Part shown: positions 6,268 to 47,436 of the stretch, one piece after another
Layout: each line of letters begins with the position of its first letter
Position numbering within the stretch: position 1 is the stretch's first letter
Source of the DNA: an uncultured Caryophanales bacterium
GTDB taxonomy: Bacteria; Bacillota_I; Bacilli_A; RFN20; CAG-449
DNA length: 56,023 nt
Direction of reading: 5' to 3'
Assembly: GCA_945873815.1 (NCBI GenBank)
Contig: CAMCEE010000013.1
Coordinates: 1 to 56,023, forward strand
Translations under genes and position numbers: made by a program
The notes under the pieces: model-generated
What the model was told of the DNA's origin: nothing
Databases searched by the model: none
The model's input: the letters and a program-made list of their open reading frames with translations, nothing else

Positions 6268-9200
6268 TTGTTTTCCTCCAGTTTTCTTATTGAATCCACA
6301 TAGAATGTTAATCCATATAAATCATCTTTTCTAAATGATCCATTTAAGATTAATGGTGTATTTTTCATTAGTTTTATCTTTTCTTTCTCATAGACATCGC
6401 TAAACAAAGTTGCAGATAATAACGAAGTATTATCATAGCATTTGATAGTTGCCATGGTTTTATGATTTTTTGTGGTAAATATGTGGATGTCACTGATTAT
6501 GACGGCAATTGAAGTATTGCTTGTAAAATTCTTTGCTTCTTGTATTGGTTTTAAATCGTATTTTTTGATGGCGTTTGAATAATTTGCAAAGAGTGAACTT
6601 GAAATGAGGATTCCAAGTACCTCATATTCATTTCTATTTTTTTCCTCTTCATTCTCATCAACTACTAAAATATTTGGAGAGATTCTTTCTAATTGTTTTT
6701 CGCTGAAGATAGAAAAGGAATTATAAGTGTTTTCAACGAATTGCATTATCCGTTTTACGTTGGCTTTTTTAGTTGCTCTATTATATTCAAAAGAATCAAA
6801 AGCTCCTGAATCGATTAAAGTGCAGATATCTTTTTCTGAAATGTTATATTCTTTCATTCTTGTAATGAAGGAAATTAAGTCTTTATATGGACCATTTTGA
6901 TTTCTTTCATAAACAATCGATTTTGAAAGATCGTAAGATAATCCTTTAATCGCAGTAAAAGGAATGACTAGCTCTTTAAACCTTGGTCTATATTCTAATG
7001 ACGAATAATTAATATCCGGTAGAGCAATTTTAATATCTAGTAGCGATAATTCATCCATATATTTGATGTATTTATTATCTGCAAGAGATTGAGTATCTAA
7101 TAAGGCACTATAGAATTCACAAGGATAATGAGCTTTTAAATACGCCATCTTATAACTGATTAATGAATAAGCGACAGAGTGCGATTTATTAAAACCATAT
7201 GAAGCAAAGCGATTAATATTTTCAAATATCTTTTCGCTTGTTTCTTTACTATAACCATTTTTTAGTGCATTCTCAAAGAATTTATCTTTTAATTGAACCA
7301 TTTGACTTTCATCTTTTTTGGAAATTGCACGTCTAAATATATCAGCTTCACTCATTGTAAAAGAAGCTACTTTTTGAACGATTTGCATGATTTGTTCTTG
7401 ATAGATGATAATTCCGTATGTTGGAGATAATATATCTTCTAATGATGGATCTATGTATTCGATTTTTGAAACTTTATTCTTATTATCTGCGTATGTTTTT
7501 ATATAACTAATTGGTCCAGGTCGACATAGAGCAAGAAGAGCAACGATATCATCGAATGTTTCCATTTTTATTTCTTTGATTGCTCTTTTAAATTCGTCAG
7601 ATTTTTCTATTTGGAAAATACCAAGTGTAAGGCCGGCATTTAACGTTAAGTATGTTTTACTATCATCCAAGGGAATATTTTTTAAATCGATTTTAATCGT
7701 TTGAGAATTAATCTTATCTACAATATTTGAAATGGTTGTCAATGTTCTTAAGCTTAATATATCCATTTTTAAAAATCCTTGTTCTTCAAGCGGAGAATAT
7801 TCATATTGACAAGTCATAATACCTTTTTCATCCTTCGTTGTTGGAACGATGTTTTCTAATGAATCATTATTTAAAATAATACCTGCAGGATGAAGACTAG
7901 ATTGACGGATATAACCTTCGATTTTTTTTGATAGAGCATATATTTTATGGAAATATGGATCTAAACATAATTTATTAAATTCATCGTTCTTATTTCTTAT
8001 TTCATCGAGCGATAAGGAGTTCCCTTTAAAAGACATTGCAAGCGTATTGATATCAATTGGGTTAAACGAAAAGATCTTCCCAATATCTCTTATTGCTTGC
8101 TTTGCACCTATTGTTTGGTAAGTAATAATATTTGCAGTCTTATCTATTCCATATTTTTGCCTGATGTATTTGATGATATCATCTCGGTATATATCAGCGA
8201 TATCAATATCGATATCTGGCATAGTAACTCTTCCTGGATTTAAGAATCTCTCAAATAATAAGTTGTATTTTAATGAATCAATTTCAGTAATACCTAAACA
8301 ATATGAAATTAAAGAACCAACAACAGATCCTCTTCCAGGACCGACAGGAATTTTTCTTTTTTTTGCTTCACTGACATAATCTGCGACGATTAAGAAATAA
8401 TCGAGAAATCCCATTTGCTCGATTATATTTAATTCGTATTCTAAACGATTCATATATTCTTTAGTGGTTGGGATATTATTCTTTAACATGTTCTCTTTGC
8501 ATTTAAATAAAATAGCTTTTCTCTTATTTAATAAGCTATCTGGATTAAAGCATAAGAGCTTACCTCTTTTTATATTGAAATCGAATTCTATCATCTCTAC
8601 TAGGTGATTTGTCTCGTTTAATTCTTCTTTGGTGTAGAGGGTAGACAATGCTAAATCATTTAAAAAATAGTATGGACCTTCTTTAGGTGTATTTGAATTG
8701 ATGAGCGTATCGTTTTTTATTGCATTTAACATTTCATAGACGATATGATCCTTTTTAGTTTCATATAGATGAAGAGGAAAAGCAATCGCTTTATTTACAT
8801 AATTATTCGCATAATCTCTTACTTTTTTCATGACTTCTTTATCTTCTTTTTGATATATTTCTATTCCTAGATAAGAATCATCAAAACCTCTTTCAAGGGT
8901 ATAGAGAATACGATGGATTTCATCGATGTAGTCACCTTTGAACGAATTGTAGACAAGATTATTTGTTTTGCAAGGAATAACGAGAATTAAACCTTTTTTA
9001 TGTTCAGAAAGTGATTCCATAGTAATAGAATCGTGATTTGATATTAAGTAACAAAGATTACGATATCCTTCTTCATTCCTAACAAAAAGAGAGATAAGAA
9101 ATTTTTTATTATTAATAAGAATATCAATTGATGAACCAAAAACTGGTTTTACATTATGTTTCTTGCATTCTTTAGAAAATGTAGGGAAAGCATAGGCGTT

Positions 9201-41216: not shown

Positions 41217-42293
41217 ATGAAAAAATGTATTGAGAAGATTAAAAGTATATTTTCAGGAAAATTATTCATTTCACTTAATAAGAAACATAAAGAGATTAAG
41301 GTAAAGAAAAATCGAAAAAACATATGGGGAATTGTTTCAGTTATTATTCTTTCACTTGTTTCTATAGGAACTGGAACTACACTTGGAATCATTGAATCAA
41401 GAAAAGAAAAAAAGGAAGTTGAAGTTGAGAAAGTTGTTATTGATAATACAAGTAAAGTGAATAGAAGATTATTTCTTATTAGTAATGATCAATATACAAT
41501 TCCTGTAACTGTATCATTAAGAAAAAAGAATTCTTTACACGAGGAATTAAAAGATTTATTTGATCTATTAAAAGAATCTACACCATATAAAACTAATTAT
41601 GTGAAAGGGTATATAAATGATGAAGTAGTCGTTAATAAGATGATATTAGAGAATAAGAGTCTTACTATAGACGTAAATGAGAAGATTCTTGATTGTTCAT
41701 TTGATGTTGTTAAGTCTTTTGAAGCACTCAATCAATCATTTTTACAATATGAGGAGATTGAGAATGTCAATATAAAAATTAATGGTAAAGAATTAAAGGA
41801 ATTCGATAAAACTAAAAATGTTAGTTCGATATTAAGTAATAAATCGATTAATGATAATGCACTTTACTTGAGTCAGAGAATTGGTCAAAAAGAAGTAGTG
41901 TTCTTTGAAAGAACTTATAGTGAGAATGATAAATACTTAGTACCAGTTACTGTATATATAAAAGATGGAATGAATGATGCAAAAACATTTGTAGAAGCGA
42001 CAAAAGTAAGTATGCCTATTTCTTCTAGATTGAAAAGAGTATCAGCCTACGATGCTTTTGAAGATGAACAACTTAGTAATGAATATAAGTTTAAGATAAA
42101 CAATTTCGCGCTTGATGTTAATGGATTAGTAAATAAGAGTTTATATGATTTAGTATCATTATCATTCGATTTTATGGATATTGATGAAAAGGTTTCATTC
42201 CTTTTAGAAGAAAATGAAATTGCTGTATCTGGAATTGTGAATGAAGAAGAATATCCTGTATCGAACATTATATATAATGAGGTTAAGTTATAG
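41217..42293 (+). CDS. membrane-anchored GerMN-type (GerM-like) protein
   Basis: A 358-residue protein with a basic cytoplasmic start, one membrane helix at about 38-56 (IWGIVSVIILSLVSIGTGTT) and a large outer part. That part seems to hold two GerMN-like units, beginning RLFLISNDQYTIPVTVSLRK and FFERTYSENDKYLVPVTVYI, each followed by a strand-helix-strand pattern. GerM is known from Bacillus spore cortex and germination. The murI-gerM neighbourhood is also Bacillus-like. Here a role in the cell envelope is more likely. The ATG at 41217 is preferred to GTG 41211 because AGGAG is 9 bases away. Confidence 0.65.
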   Translation: MKKCIEKIKSIFSGKLFISLNKKHKEIKVKKNRKNIWGIVSVIILSLVSIGTGTTLGIIESRKEKKEVEVEKVVIDNTSKVNRRLFLISNDQYTIPVTVSLRKKNSLHEELKDLFDLLKESTPYKTNYVKGYINDEVVVNKMILENKSLTIDVNEKILDCSFDVVKSFEALNQSFLQYEEIENVNIKINGKELKEFDKTKNVSSILSNKSINDNALYLSQRIGQKEVVFFERTYSENDKYLVPVTVYIKDGMNDAKTFVEATKVSMPISSRLKRVSAYDAFEDEQLSNEYKFKINNFALDVNGLVNKSLYDLVSLSFDFMDIDEKVSFLLEENEIAVSGIVNEEEYPVSNIIYNEVKL

Positions 42294-42318
42294 ATGGTTG
42301 AAAAACCATCTTTTCTTT
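42292..42318 (+). terminator. terminator after the GerMN gene
   Basis: AGATGGTT (42292-42299), loop GAAA, AACCATCT (42304-42311), then TTTCTTTAC. The stem starts inside the stop codon. Confidence 0.75.
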
Positions 42319-42363
42319 ACTTTTATTATGAAAATGATACAATAAATATAGAAAGTGAGTAGC

Positions 42364-43083
42364 ATGAATAACATTAAATTTTTAAATCTATACAAGACAT
42401 TTGAAGCATTAGTTAAGGATTCTTATTCTGGTGATTCTTCAAGAGCAATCAGATCCTATATTTCCAAATTAGAGCATTCGGTTTCTTTATCCGAACAAAT
42501 AAGAGGGAGAAAATTAAATGTTGCAAGAGAACTAAGAAATGGGCTTGCACATTTAGAAGATGTCGAGGTTGATGGATTATATAATAGTTCTTTTTCCATC
42601 AGCGATTCTTTAATTGAGATATTGGAAAAAGAGATTGAAATCATCCGTAACCCAAGAATTGTTGAAAATGAAATGGTTAAGATAAGTAATGTTTTCTATA
42701 CTTCAAATGATGAATTATTATCTAATGTATTTGAAAGGATGAGTAGTCATACATATTCTAATGTTCCTATTCTTGAAGATGGTAGGGTGGTTGGAGTTTT
42801 TGGCGAGCATTCTATCTTTGCCTTTGTTACAGATAATAAGAATATAAGCATTAGTAATGAACTTAAAATAAAGGATTTAGCTGAATATACTTCTTTGGAT
42901 AAGCAAAAGAATGAATATTACACTTTCGTTGCAAGAAACGCAAAAGTGGTTGAATTATATGATGAATTTACAAAATATCGTGATGGTAAGAGATTAGGAA
43001 TGGCTTTTGTTACTCAAAATGGTCTTCCAAAAGAAAAAATTATTGGTATAGTTACTATCTATGATTTGATTGATAAAGAGTGA
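42364..43083 (+). CDS. HEPN-like domain fused to a CBS-domain pair
   Basis: A 239-residue protein. Residues 1-95 are helical and contain R58-N-G-L-A-H63, the RNxxxH motif of HEPN ribonucleases, preceded by helices like those of HEPN folds. Residues about 105-160 (FYTSNDELLSNVFERMSSHT, then VPILEDGRVVGVFGEHSIF) and 180-235 (FVARNAKVVELYDEF, then IIGIVTIYDLID) are two CBS motifs, which bind adenosine nucleotides. A nucleotide-gated RNase is a reasonable guess. The start at 42364 is placed after AAGTGAG; a GTG at 42355 is the alternative. It lies between terminators, just before tRNA-Arg. Whether the HEPN site is active is unknown. Confidence 0.65.
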   Translation: MNNIKFLNLYKTFEALVKDSYSGDSSRAIRSYISKLEHSVSLSEQIRGRKLNVARELRNGLAHLEDVEVDGLYNSSFSISDSLIEILEKEIEIIRNPRIVENEMVKISNVFYTSNDELLSNVFERMSSHTYSNVPILEDGRVVGVFGEHSIFAFVTDNKNISISNELKIKDLAEYTSLDKQKNEYYTFVARNAKVVELYDEFTKYRDGKRLGMAFVTQNGLPKEKIIGIVTIYDLIDKE

Positions 43084-43285: not shown

Positions 43286-43362
43286 GGCCTTGTAGCTCAG
43301 CTGGATAGAGCAACTGCCTTCTAAGCAGTAGGTCTGGCGTTCGAATCGCCACAAGGTCACCA
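43286..43362 (+). tRNA. tRNA-Arg (anticodon UCU)
   Basis: Full cloverleaf: acceptor GGCCTTG with CAAGGTC (one G-U pair), D-arm AGCTC...GAGC, anticodon stem ACTGC/GCAGT with loop CTTCTAA (anticodon TCT), T-arm GGCGTTCGAATCGCC, discriminator A and an encoded CCA. It reads AGA, the main arginine codon in this AT-rich genome. Confidence 0.97.
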
Positions 43363-43671: not shown

Positions 43672-44193
43672 ATGAGTAAAATTAATATTATAAAAAAGGG
43701 AATCACTCATCTTGATGTTGATTGTATCGTAAATGCAGCGAATAGCTCCTTGTCTTTTGGAGGAGGAGTTTGTGGAGCGATTTTTCAAGCTGCTGGAATA
43801 GATGAATTATCTAAAGCATGTGGTAAAATCGGTCATTGTAATACGGGTGATGCTGTGATTACTCCGTCTTTTAGAATTACAAACGCAAAATATATAATTC
43901 ACGCAGTTGGTCCTGTTTACTCTTACTCGAATAAACAACAATGTCGTGATCTACTTTATAGCGCTTATAAAAGAGCTTTAGAAGTTATGCTAGAGAATGA
44001 TTGTCTATCCATTGCATTTCCTTTGATTTCAAGTGGTATCTATGGTTATCCTATAGAAGAAGCGTGGAGAGTAGCTTTAAAGGCTTGTAATTCATTTATT
44101 TCTCAACATTCAGATATCGATATAACAATATATTTTGCAGTTATTGATGATGAAAGATATGATATCGGTAAAAAGATAATAAATGAATGTTAA
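43672..44193 (+). CDS. macro-domain protein (ADP-ribose / O-acetyl-ADP-ribose hydrolase type)
   Basis: A 173-residue single-domain protein. DCIVNAANSSLSFGGGVCGAI is the ADP-ribose-binding start of MacroD/YmdB-like proteins, with CNTGDAVITPSF, YIIHAVGP and the loop PLISSGIYGYPIEEA completing the pocket. These enzymes remove ADP-ribose from proteins or deacetylate O-acetyl-ADP-ribose. Its place beside accessory genes raises the chance of a role in stress or phage response, but that is inference. It has a GGTTGGTG-like, rather weak ribosome site. Confidence 0.92.
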   Translation: MSKINIIKKGITHLDVDCIVNAANSSLSFGGGVCGAIFQAAGIDELSKACGKIGHCNTGDAVITPSFRITNAKYIIHAVGPVYSYSNKQQCRDLLYSAYKRALEVMLENDCLSIAFPLISSGIYGYPIEEAWRVALKACNSFISQHSDIDITIYFAVIDDERYDIGKKIINEC

Positions 44194-44262
44194 TAGTAAG
44201 AAAAATATATAATTATGGAATAATAATTTGAAAATATTTTTAAACATCATAGAGGTGGAAAG

Positions 44263-45051
44263 ATGAAGATTCAATGTTTAGTTGAAAATGTTAAATATAA
44301 TAATTTAGTTCCAAAACATGGAGTGTGTTTCTATATAGAAACAAGCAAACATAAAATATTATTTGACTTAGGACCAGATGATTTATTCTTTAGGAATGCA
44401 AATTTACTAAATATTGACATTTCTAAAGTTGATACTGTAATCATTTCGCATGGCCATGTTGATCATGGAGGTGGATTAAGAACTTTTTTGAGTGTCAATA
44501 ATACTGCTAAAATATATGTACAAAGAAATGCATTTGATGATTATTATACAAAAGTACTATTTATAAAAGCTTATATTGGTTTAGATCAGGATTTGAAGAA
44601 TAATAATCAAATTGTATATGTGGATAATGATTTTGTAATCGATGATGAATTATCTTTATGGACAGCTAAAAAGAATATATTGCCTTCACCTTTTAATAGA
44701 GCACTATATAAAGGGAATAATCTTTTAGATGATTTTTCTCATGAACAAAGTTTGCTAGTTAAAGAGAATAAGAACGTCTTGTTTACAGGATGTTCGCATC
44801 ATGGTGTATTCAATATATTAGATGCCGTAAAAGAAAGAGTTGATATACAAATAGGTGGATTTCATTTGTGTAATCCTGTCTTAAAAAAATACGCAAAATG
44901 TCAATACTTAGAAGAATTCAAAAATAAACTTAAAGAATACGATAATGTTTTTTATACTTGTCATTGCACTGGGATAAAGCCATTTACATATTTGAGCAAG
45001 GATAATTCAAATATTAAATATTTTTATTGTGGAATGAGTTTAGAGGTGTAA
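44263..45051 (+). CDS. MBL-fold metallo-hydrolase
   Basis: A 262-residue metallo-beta-lactamase-fold protein. The metal motif HxHxDH is in IISHGHVDHGGGL; another histidine pair is in FTGCSHHGVFNIL; GGFHLCNP and YTCHCTGIKPF give the last ligands. The overall order resembles the archaeal dihydropterin-ribofuranosyl-aminobenzene phosphate synthase group that is common in anaerobes with unknown substrates. An AGAGGTGG ribosome site precedes the ATG, 69 bases after the macro gene. Confidence 0.88.
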   Translation: MKIQCLVENVKYNNLVPKHGVCFYIETSKHKILFDLGPDDLFFRNANLLNIDISKVDTVIISHGHVDHGGGLRTFLSVNNTAKIYVQRNAFDDYYTKVLFIKAYIGLDQDLKNNNQIVYVDNDFVIDDELSLWTAKKNILPSPFNRALYKGNNLLDDFSHEQSLLVKENKNVLFTGCSHHGVFNILDAVKERVDIQIGGFHLCNPVLKKYAKCQYLEEFKNKLKEYDNVFYTCHCTGIKPFTYLSKDNSNIKYFYCGMSLEV

Positions 45052-45216: not shown

Positions 45217-47109
45217 ATGATTATTTATAATAAGACAAAAGGGGAATTTATCGACGATATTAGGAATGGTTATATCGTTGATCAAATTGAAGAGGGATTT
45301 AAGAAGCATCATATAAATCATTCGAGTGAAGCAGAACGCCGTTCATGGGCATATTCTTTGATGTTTATGCGAAATGTATTAGATGATGAAGATATTGCAA
45401 ATGATTGTCCATTAGCTATCGAATATCAAATCCCATTAACTTCAAAAAGAGTTGATTTCCTTATTACAGGGAAAGATAAAAAAGATAGTAACAACGTGGT
45501 AATAATCGAATTAAAACAATGGGAGAATTGTTCGACTACTGAAAAACCAGATGTAGTAAAAGCTTTTACAGGAGGAGCAGAAAGAAATGTTGCTCATCCT
45601 TCTTATCAAGCTTATTCTTATGCTAAGATAATCGAAAACTTTAATGAAGAGGTATATAAAGAGAAAATTGGATTAAAGCCATGCGCTTTCTTACATAATT
45701 TTAAGGAAGAAAATCGTCATAACATCGATAATGATTTTTATTCTGAAGCAATAGAACTTGCACCTATTTTTTTAGCAAAAGATGTTGTAAAATTACGTAA
45801 TTTTATAAAATCATTCATAATAAAGGCATCAGATTGTGATCTATTAATGAAAATAGAACATGGTAAACTTAAACCAGCAAAAGCACTTCAAGATAGTGTA
45901 GCATCAATGCTTAAAGGGAATAAGGAATTTTATTTGATTGATGAACAAAAGGTAGCTTATGAAACTGTAAAAAAGACTGTAATCAGTTCATTACGAGAGA
46001 TTAATAAGTTAACAGGAACTAATCAAAAATATACAATAATTGTTGAAGGTGGTCCTGGAACTGGAAAAAGTGTTGTAGCAATTCAATTATTATGTGATTT
46101 GATACAAAAAGGCTATTCCGCAAATTACGTAACAAAAAATGCTGCGCCAAGAAATGTTTATTTTGAAAAACTTAAACAAGATAAATACAAATTGAATTAT
46201 ATAAAGAGCTTATTTAAAGGTTCTAGCTCATATATCGATGTACCTAATAATTTTTTTGATTGTCTTATTGTTGATGAAGCACATCGATTAAATGCTAAAT
46301 CGGGTATGTTTCAAAATCTAGGTGAGAATCAGATTAAAGAAATAATTCATGCATCAAAAGTATCAGTTTTTTTCATCGATGAAGATCAAGTTGTTACAAC
46401 TTCAGATGTTGGTTCTGTAGATTTAATTAAACATTATGCTAAAGAAGAAAATTCAATTGTATGTTCTGGAGATGAGATGAAACTTGTTTCTCAATTCCGT
46501 TGTAATGGATCAGATGGGTATTTAGCTTTTTTAGATAATTTATTAGGAATTAGAGAAACTGCGAATTATGATCTTGATATTGATTACGATATAAAACTTT
46601 TTGATGATCCAAATAAAATGAGAGATGCTTTAAAAGAAAAAAATGAAATCAACAATAAATCGAGGATGCTTGCAGGATATTGTTATAATTGGATTACCAA
46701 GAATAATCCATCTTCTGATGAATACGATATTGTTTTAGAAAATGGATTTAAGGCAAAATGGAATTTTAGTAATACCTCTACTTGGGCAATTGATGAATCT
46801 TCTTTTTCTCAAGTTGGCTGTATTCACACTGCTCAAGGTTTAGAGTTTGATTGGTGTGGAGTAATTATTGGTAAGGATTTACGATTTGATGGTAATAAAG
46901 TGATTACCGATTATCAAAGTAGAGCAAAAACGGATACTTCATTAAAAGGAATAAAAACAACAAAAAACTTTGATTTAGCCGATCGAATTATTAGAAATAC
47001 ATACCGAACTCTTTTATCAAGAGGTCAAAAAGGATGTTATATCTATTGTGAAGATAAAGAATTGATGAAATACATTTCAAAAATGCTTAATAAGGAGATT
47101 ATCAAATAG
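45217..47109 (+). CDS. PD-(D/E)XK-like nuclease fused to DUF2075/SF1 helicase
   Basis: A 630-residue protein. Residues 1-210 have a probable PD-(D/E)XK core: D80 in TSKRVDFLI and E98-x-K100 in VVIIELKQW, with E40 a candidate first acid. From about 272 a DUF2075 superfamily-1 helicase follows: Walker A EGGPGTGKSVVA (278-285), Walker B CLIVDEAHR (DEAH 353-356), motif III VFFIDEDQVV, LVSQFRCNG, CIHTAQGLEFDWCGVIIG and arginine-rich RNTYRTLLSRG near the end. All helicase motifs look intact. Coupled nuclease-helicases of this type are frequent in defence and repair. The next gene begins immediately after the stop, so both are co-made. Confidence 0.85.
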   Translation: MIIYNKTKGEFIDDIRNGYIVDQIEEGFKKHHINHSSEAERRSWAYSLMFMRNVLDDEDIANDCPLAIEYQIPLTSKRVDFLITGKDKKDSNNVVIIELKQWENCSTTEKPDVVKAFTGGAERNVAHPSYQAYSYAKIIENFNEEVYKEKIGLKPCAFLHNFKEENRHNIDNDFYSEAIELAPIFLAKDVVKLRNFIKSFIIKASDCDLLMKIEHGKLKPAKALQDSVASMLKGNKEFYLIDEQKVAYETVKKTVISSLREINKLTGTNQKYTIIVEGGPGTGKSVVAIQLLCDLIQKGYSANYVTKNAAPRNVYFEKLKQDKYKLNYIKSLFKGSSSYIDVPNNFFDCLIVDEAHRLNAKSGMFQNLGENQIKEIIHASKVSVFFIDEDQVVTTSDVGSVDLIKHYAKEENSIVCSGDEMKLVSQFRCNGSDGYLAFLDNLLGIRETANYDLDIDYDIKLFDDPNKMRDALKEKNEINNKSRMLAGYCYNWITKNNPSSDEYDIVLENGFKAKWNFSNTSTWAIDESSFSQVGCIHTAQGLEFDWCGVIIGKDLRFDGNKVITDYQSRAKTDTSLKGIKTTKNFDLADRIIRNTYRTLLSRGQKGCYIYCEDKELMKYISKMLNKEIIK

Positions 47110-47436
47110 ATGGATAGATTAGAATCATTATTAAAAAGAATTGATAAATTCAATAAAGATAGAGATTGGGATAAATTTCATACTCCTTCTAATCTAGCAA
47201 AATCGATTTCAATTGAAGCAAACGAATTATTAGAGTGCTTTCAATGGAACGATGATGGATATAATATAAATGAAGTTAGAGAAGAACTTGCCGATGTAAT
47301 GAATTATTGTTTGCAAATGGCTATGGTGTTGAATTTGGATATCATAGATATTATGAACGATAAGATGGATAAAACAGAAATGAAATATCCTGTAGAAAAA
47401 GCAAAAGGAAGATCTACAAAATATACTAAATTATAG
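47110..47436 (+). CDS. MazG-like nucleotide pyrophosphohydrolase, DCTPP1/RS21-C6 type
   Basis: A 108-residue all-helical enzyme cleaving NTP or dNTP to the monophosphate. FNKDRDWDKFHTPSNLAKSI followed by EANELLECFQW matches the dCTP pyrophosphatase (RS21-C6) group closely, and EELADVMNYCL supplies the second metal motif (ExxE and ExxD). The preferred substrate may be dCTP or a modified dNTP. Its ATG follows the helicase stop with zero gap, and AAGGAG lies inside the helicase gene, so the two are translationally coupled and probably one functional unit. Confidence 0.9.
   Translation: MDRLESLLKRIDKFNKDRDWDKFHTPSNLAKSISIEANELLECFQWNDDGYNINEVREELADVMNYCLQMAMVLNLDIIDIMNDKMDKTEMKYPVEKAKGRSTKYTKL

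Follow-up and report, generated by a model that had tools for sequence, protein, structure and literature searches.

A HEPN-CBS fusion family in Bacilli chromosomes as a candidate ligand-gated RNase

Described systems and the gene in its surroundings

Most of what is known about HEPN RNases concerns toxins and defence effectors. In eukaryotes, Ire1 and RNase L are ligand- or stress-gated HEPN RNases of a logic similar to the one considered here, and Csm6 and Csx1 are CARF-HEPN RNases in which a ligand-binding domain, an N-terminal CARF sensor for cyclic oligoadenylate, gates the HEPN RNase. In the portions of the two closest sources available to us, HEPN RNases are described as usually dimeric and metal-independent, leaving 2',3'-cyclic ends (PMC3710099, PMC13092281). 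Fusions of HEPN and CBS domains were proposed to be ligand-responsive RNases in 2013, when Anantharaman et al. listed HEPN-CBS(-HD) proteins such as alr3009 and Pelobacter gi 118580987; as far as the consulted excerpt goes, the route from sensing to RNA degradation was presented as a possibly poorly appreciated signalling pathway (PMC3710099). In 2026, anti-phage activity was demonstrated for a CBS+HEPN protein, DS-11 (PMC13092281, in part). The HEPN-CBS hypothesis is therefore already in print, as a pairing since 2013 and tested for DS-11 in 2026, and the consulted sections of PMC7701990 and PMC6563490 do not treat HEPN-CBS fusions.

The gene described here lies in a window of 56,023 nucleotides, the whole stretch of DNA analysed, from an uncultured Caryophanales bacterium (contig CAMCEE010000013.1, GCA_945873815.1). 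The features of the locus, all on the + strand, are as follows.

42292..42311, +, terminator-like hairpin between the upstream GerM-type gene and the HEPN-CBS gene
42316..42343, +, promoter-like site TTTACT-16-TACAAT with TG before the second hexamer (a consensus match only, at a regional count equal to chance)
42364..43083, +, HEPN-CBS fusion gene, 239 aa (ORF list, translation, Pfam)
42364..42654, +, HEPN-like four-helix N-terminal domain, residues 1-97 (AlphaFold2, PDB profile, VIA-align, Pfam)
42535..42552, +, RNGLAH putative active-site motif, R58-H63 (R58, N59 and H63 invariant in 69/69)
42655..43080, +, CBS pair (Bateman module), residues 98-239 (Pfam CBS 1.3e-9; VIA Z about 14-15)
43054..43065, +, T231-x-x-D234 of CBS2, a [ST]xxD motif (D234 in 61/69)

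The open reading frame runs from ATG 42364 to the stop at 43081-43083, as the first-pass annotation had placed it; a mechanical ORF list starts the same frame at GTG 42355. The layout is monocistronic, the gene standing alone between the hairpin that ends the GerM-type gene and a tRNA-Arg gene (43286-43362) downstream. These two neighbours also uphold the annotation's remark that no antitoxin is adjacent: a Pfam scan of six neighbours found no MNT (MntA-type) nucleotidyltransferase, and no CRISPR gene occurs among the seven window proteins scanned with Pfam.

Two further gene pairs lie downstream. A macro-domain protein and an MBL-fold protein are encoded just 3' of the tRNA-Arg (43672-45051), and neither was found at the other 61 loci searched. 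The stretch 45217-47436 follows, with a Schlafen-group-3/DUF2075 helicase (PF09848, 1e-100) and a MazG-like gene directly after it. Relatives of both, at 51% and 66% identity, are also found near the HEPN-CBS homologue at locus L145, and because of this recurrence the helicase and the MazG-like gene may be a travelling pair.

Domain architecture and the RNGLAH motif

The translation contains R58-N59-G60-L61-A62-H63 within the helical N-terminal domain, as originally read. An R-x4-H pattern alone is weak evidence, because by a rough composition estimate about one in four proteins of such size would have one. R58, N59 and H63, however, are invariant in 26/26 order-level homologues, in all 60 homologues drawn from order and class (L110 among them with an internal stop), and in 69/69 full-length homologues, from whose alignment six of 75 rows shorter than 215 aa had been removed beforehand; these sets overlap, and they are non-random samples since they were retrieved with the window protein or its family profiles. 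No homologue examined is an exception to the conservation of R58 and H63 on which the annotation had made its reading depend. Outside these three residues, N-terminal domains share about 15-39% identity with the window protein, and R58, N59 and H63 are the sole invariant columns among 50 N-terminal domains. Judged from these alignments, the conservation would be hard to explain by chance. The motif agrees with the published HEPN pattern, which in the part of the source consulted is R-x4-6-H with a polar residue after R, located at the end of helix 3 and read, where conserved, as the signature of RNase catalysis (PMC3710099): the window protein has R58-N59-x3-H63, with residues 58-63 near the end of the helix spanning residues 42-68.

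The full-length AlphaFold2 model (pLDDT 86.2) returned only CBS pairs in a fold search, and the N-terminal domain was therefore folded alone (mean pLDDT 84.9), giving four helices at residues 2-20, 25-37, 42-68 and 81-95. Foldseek found no significant match to this model in the PDB (best E 2.1) and nothing significant in a viral library. The HEPN case consequently rests on four other observations. First, a search of all PDB sequences with a profile built from 50 N-terminal domains gave three matches at E<=10, all of them HepT (E 0.0027-0.0066), with LRN-x3-H aligned over LRNIAVH and the catalytic motif in register. Second, the three invariant residues are those of the motif. Third, HepT (6m6w/7bxo) occupies the first row of VIA-align with Z 5.8, rmsd 3.5 and 86 aligned residues, and Csm6 (6tug) the fourth row with Z 5.3 and 85 aligned, although a Z of 5-6 falls in what the tool describes as a common range for helical bundles, and one designed three-helix bundle is placed between the HEPN rows. 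Fourth, HEPN Pfam models match the 50 domains weakly but recurrently (RiboL-PSP in 14, HepT in 8, Cthe2314 in 6), with further weak matches to Abi_2, DUF4145 and Apea, of which we take Abi_2 and DUF4145 to be HEPN families. The N-terminal domain is thus very probably HEPN, in keeping with the fold first suggested for it. DUF6548 (PF20185), a family of unknown function for which our literature search found no paper, also weakly matches 29/50 of these domains; its match to the window protein covers residues 5-67 and is weak too, scoring 22.3-24.7 bits where the gathering cut-off is 27.3.

The clean CBS pair reported behind the helical domain is likewise present. PF00571 matches two stretches (E 1.3e-9), the AlphaFold2 model folds them as a pair, and residues 97-239 of the full model match CBS pairs such as those of DarB, CorB and AcuB in VIA-align with Z about 14-15. 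The matched DarB, AcuB and CorB structures include forms bound to adenine nucleotide or c-di-AMP, and a CBS part was found in 26/26 order-level members. The T231-x-x-D234 motif of CBS2 is an instance of [ST]xxD, presumably a ribose/phosphate-type motif, and the retention of D234 in 61/69 homologues is no more than suggestive of adenine-nucleotide binding. In the clade of genus g42 (L145, L147, L148, L032 and L035), T-x-x-D of CBS2 has been lost and R58, N59 and H63 are retained; the canonical nucleotide site is thus not universal, and the loss possibly reflects a changed ligand or changed control.

Distribution, inheritance and chromosomal contexts

Within the order, 96/279 genomes contain a match at E<=0.001 with CBS-only matches counted in, and by hand count about 65/279 have a match long enough to include the motif as well as the CBS pair. 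The class sample gave 95/395 genomes at E<=1e-6, again counting CBS-only matches. In the phylum sample, a profile of the HEPN domain matches 56/392 genomes, all 56 from the same class or nearer, and by hand count 53 of the 58 matches are in frames of fusion size (191-267 aa). The named loci belong to uncultured Bacilli or carry the plain label 'uncultured bacterium'. Relatives that carry this motif are found in many gut-type Bacilli, and their genes frequently belong to ordinary chromosomal operons. No homologue was found in the phage records or in the viral contigs searched, and matches on plasmids reach no more than 55% of the query, in a stretch that is largely or entirely CBS. One very long open frame in a class genome was rejected, as it proved to be a masked stretch. 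At L109, two HEPN-CBS copies of one genome (6001-6717 and about 7337-8089) flank, by eye, a short Nudix-like gene on the opposite strand; the match of the second copy contains one stop.

A gene tree, built by a quick method and with some long branches, requires 14 changes of the taxonomic family label, where the minimum is 10 and shuffled labels average 40.7. Inheritance is mostly vertical, with L108, L127 and the window copy among the exceptions. The window protein falls outside the group of L136-L139, four other copies of its genus. An M18-type peptidase lies 0.1-3.9 kb from L136-L139 and from L132, which is of another family, that is, at five of the seven loci of the group; L140 and the window are the two without it. 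The window's genome encodes this peptidase on a different contig, and no remnant of a HEPN-CBS gene lies within 10 kb of it. Since the window copy stands apart from its congeners and away from the peptidase site, movement does occur.

Several clades keep the gene in a fixed context. In the main f28 clade, ecfA1 is downstream in 11/12 loci and rplQ upstream in 10/12 (L061 included), and L108, another f28 copy, has neither. Mrp precedes the gene by 0-23 bp in 4/4 loci of the f2 clade, and murB follows it by 58-59 bp in all three loci of g219. A LigT-type phosphoesterase is encoded 6-9 bp upstream in five of the six loci of the f18 clade, the sixth having just 292 bp of flank; these five (L092-L096) represent five species of one genus, and their LigT_PEase is possibly an RNA 2',3'-cyclic phosphodiesterase. 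Pfam confirmed rplQ, the ABC ATPase, LigT_PEase and the Mrp-type ATPase on single examples, and murB, ecfA1/ecfT and the M18-type peptidase were named by eye. Each conserved context represents one evolutionary placement at clade level rather than many. Beyond these clade-specific contexts, no neighbour cluster recurs between loci apart from the common ABC ATPases (17/60 loci). Close to several loci there are ffh/trmD, rimP/nusA, tig, gltX or rplM/rpsI (names by eye); a general tie to translation genes was set aside because such genes are common and the counts had no control, which leaves the rplQ/ecfA arrangement of one clade as the sole such link relied on.

Candidate functions and comparison with known systems

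We favour the view that the gene encodes a single-gene, chromosomal, ligand-gated RNase, and that its role is to regulate RNA decay, in housekeeping or under stress, not to act as a mobile toxin. As regards fold and architecture there is good support for a HEPN RNase controlled by a CBS ligand; its activity and its ligand are inferred. The observed basis comprises the architecture, the fold resemblance, the invariant motif, the mostly taxonomic inheritance and the stable chromosomal contexts; dimerisation, the direction of switching and the housekeeping or stress role are steps of the model. The HEPN domain would be expected to dimerise, R58, N59 and H63 then making up an RNase site that works without metal and produces 2',3'-cyclic phosphate ends. 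The C-terminal CBS pair would bind an adenine nucleotide (AMP, ADP or ATP, or else c-di-AMP or Ap4A) and hold the HEPN domain off or switch it on, the bound nucleotide setting the geometry of the HEPN dimer through the fusion by analogy with known CBS proteins. The signal may then be either the energy or the alarmone state that the annotation named. Such internal control, which the first-pass annotation had suggested, would correspond to the model published for these fusions in the portion of PMC3710099 consulted, and DS-11 mutants support regulation by CBS in DS-11 itself (PMC13092281, in part).

With control built in, an antitoxin would not be needed. Built-in control is also the simplest reading, because no antitoxin is conserved and the operons are likely well expressed; as relatives often sit in ordinary chromosomal operons, the protein may be a built-in RNA-decay switch and not a mobile toxin. 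A more specific version, in which an antitoxin-free housekeeping HEPN RNase of Bacilli couples adenine-nucleotide status to RNA decay from core operons (rplQ, ECF ATPase), with LigT-type end repair in one lineage, is tentative. The LigT-type neighbour of that one lineage fits an enzyme acting on 2',3'-cyclic ends.

The best-placed alternative is an abortive anti-phage system resembling DS-11, in which infection shifts an adenine nucleotide, CBS senses the shift and HEPN cuts host or phage RNA. The one-protein DS-11 protects against phage and, in the sections of the source consulted, needs both its HEPN catalytic residues and Y157 of CBS (PMC13092281). The DUF2075 helicase (matching PADLOC PDC-S41 at E 2.3e-18) and the MazG-like gene, 2-4 kb downstream in the window and paired again near L145, could be part of a defence cluster. 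However, this linkage is seen at 2/62 loci searched, the window counted in (at L100 a MazG-like match occurs by itself, 5.3 kb away and on the other strand), and no PADLOC model matches the window HEPN domain at E<=0.1. The DS-11 model (NF053863) matches the window protein in its CBS part only, scoring 17.3 bits where the cut-off is 260, a value that none of 273 order genomes reaches. The taxonomy-following tree and the core-operon contexts also argue against an anti-phage role, which we regard as rather unlikely; a housekeeping or stress RNase is probably the better description than mobile defence.

A HEPN toxin acting on its own, with its antitoxin gene at another site and the CBS pair as a dimerisation scaffold only, appears improbable: the toxin HepT is the closest solved sequence relative, but the six scanned neighbours contain no MntA-type nucleotidyltransferase and the shared neighbours are clade-specific apart from the ABC ATPases. 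More improbable still is a non-catalytic RNA- or ribosome-binding adaptor with CBS as energy sensor and R/N/H kept for binding, which would accord with the rplQ context of one clade and with the loss of the motif in some HEPN domains (PMC3710099, in part) but not with an invariance strict for exactly R, N and H, nor with that paper's use of the conserved motif as an RNase active-site mark.

The favoured ligand-gated RNase can be set beside four described systems. The 2013 fusions share its domain pairing and a proposed path from nucleotide sensing to RNA stability; they are compared here by description alone, the part of PMC3710099 consulted naming no example from Bacilli. DS-11, like the window protein, unites CBS and HEPN in a single polypeptide, and gating by an adenine derivative is proposed for it, with HEPN and CBS residues both required there (PMC13092281, in part). 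The DS-11 model, however, points to CBS first and HEPN last over about 305 aa, whereas the window protein has HEPN first over 239 aa, an order inferred for DS-11 from model positions rather than its own sequence (about 74-192 are matched by CBS proteins, and 202-292, HEPN-like, by a stretch of another protein holding RNKVMH). DS-11 is a tested defence system, whereas the present family is known from sequence and, in several clades, occupies core contexts. Because the curated model matches the CBS part only and the order is opposite, we do not assign the window family to DS-11.

HepT shares the HEPN domain, the aligned LRN-x3-H and the top structural row with the window protein, but in the type VII HepT/MntA system it is paired with a nucleotidyltransferase antitoxin, and the window gene has a fused CBS pair in place of an adjacent one. 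Csm6 and Csx1 differ in their sensor, which in the window protein is a CBS pair and C-terminal, and no CRISPR gene accompanies it among the seven scanned proteins. Our literature search, mostly of non-subscription papers, found no description of a HEPN-first Bacilli family or of its residence in core operons. What appears to be new is a family without a conserved antitoxin and without matches in phage records or viral contigs, HEPN-first and in one class, mostly following taxonomy and holding fixed contexts (rplQ/ecfA, a LigT-type phosphoesterase, mrp). If the favoured reading is true, this widespread core-operon HEPN-CBS family would offer a testable case of nucleotide-gated bacterial RNA decay outside phage defence.
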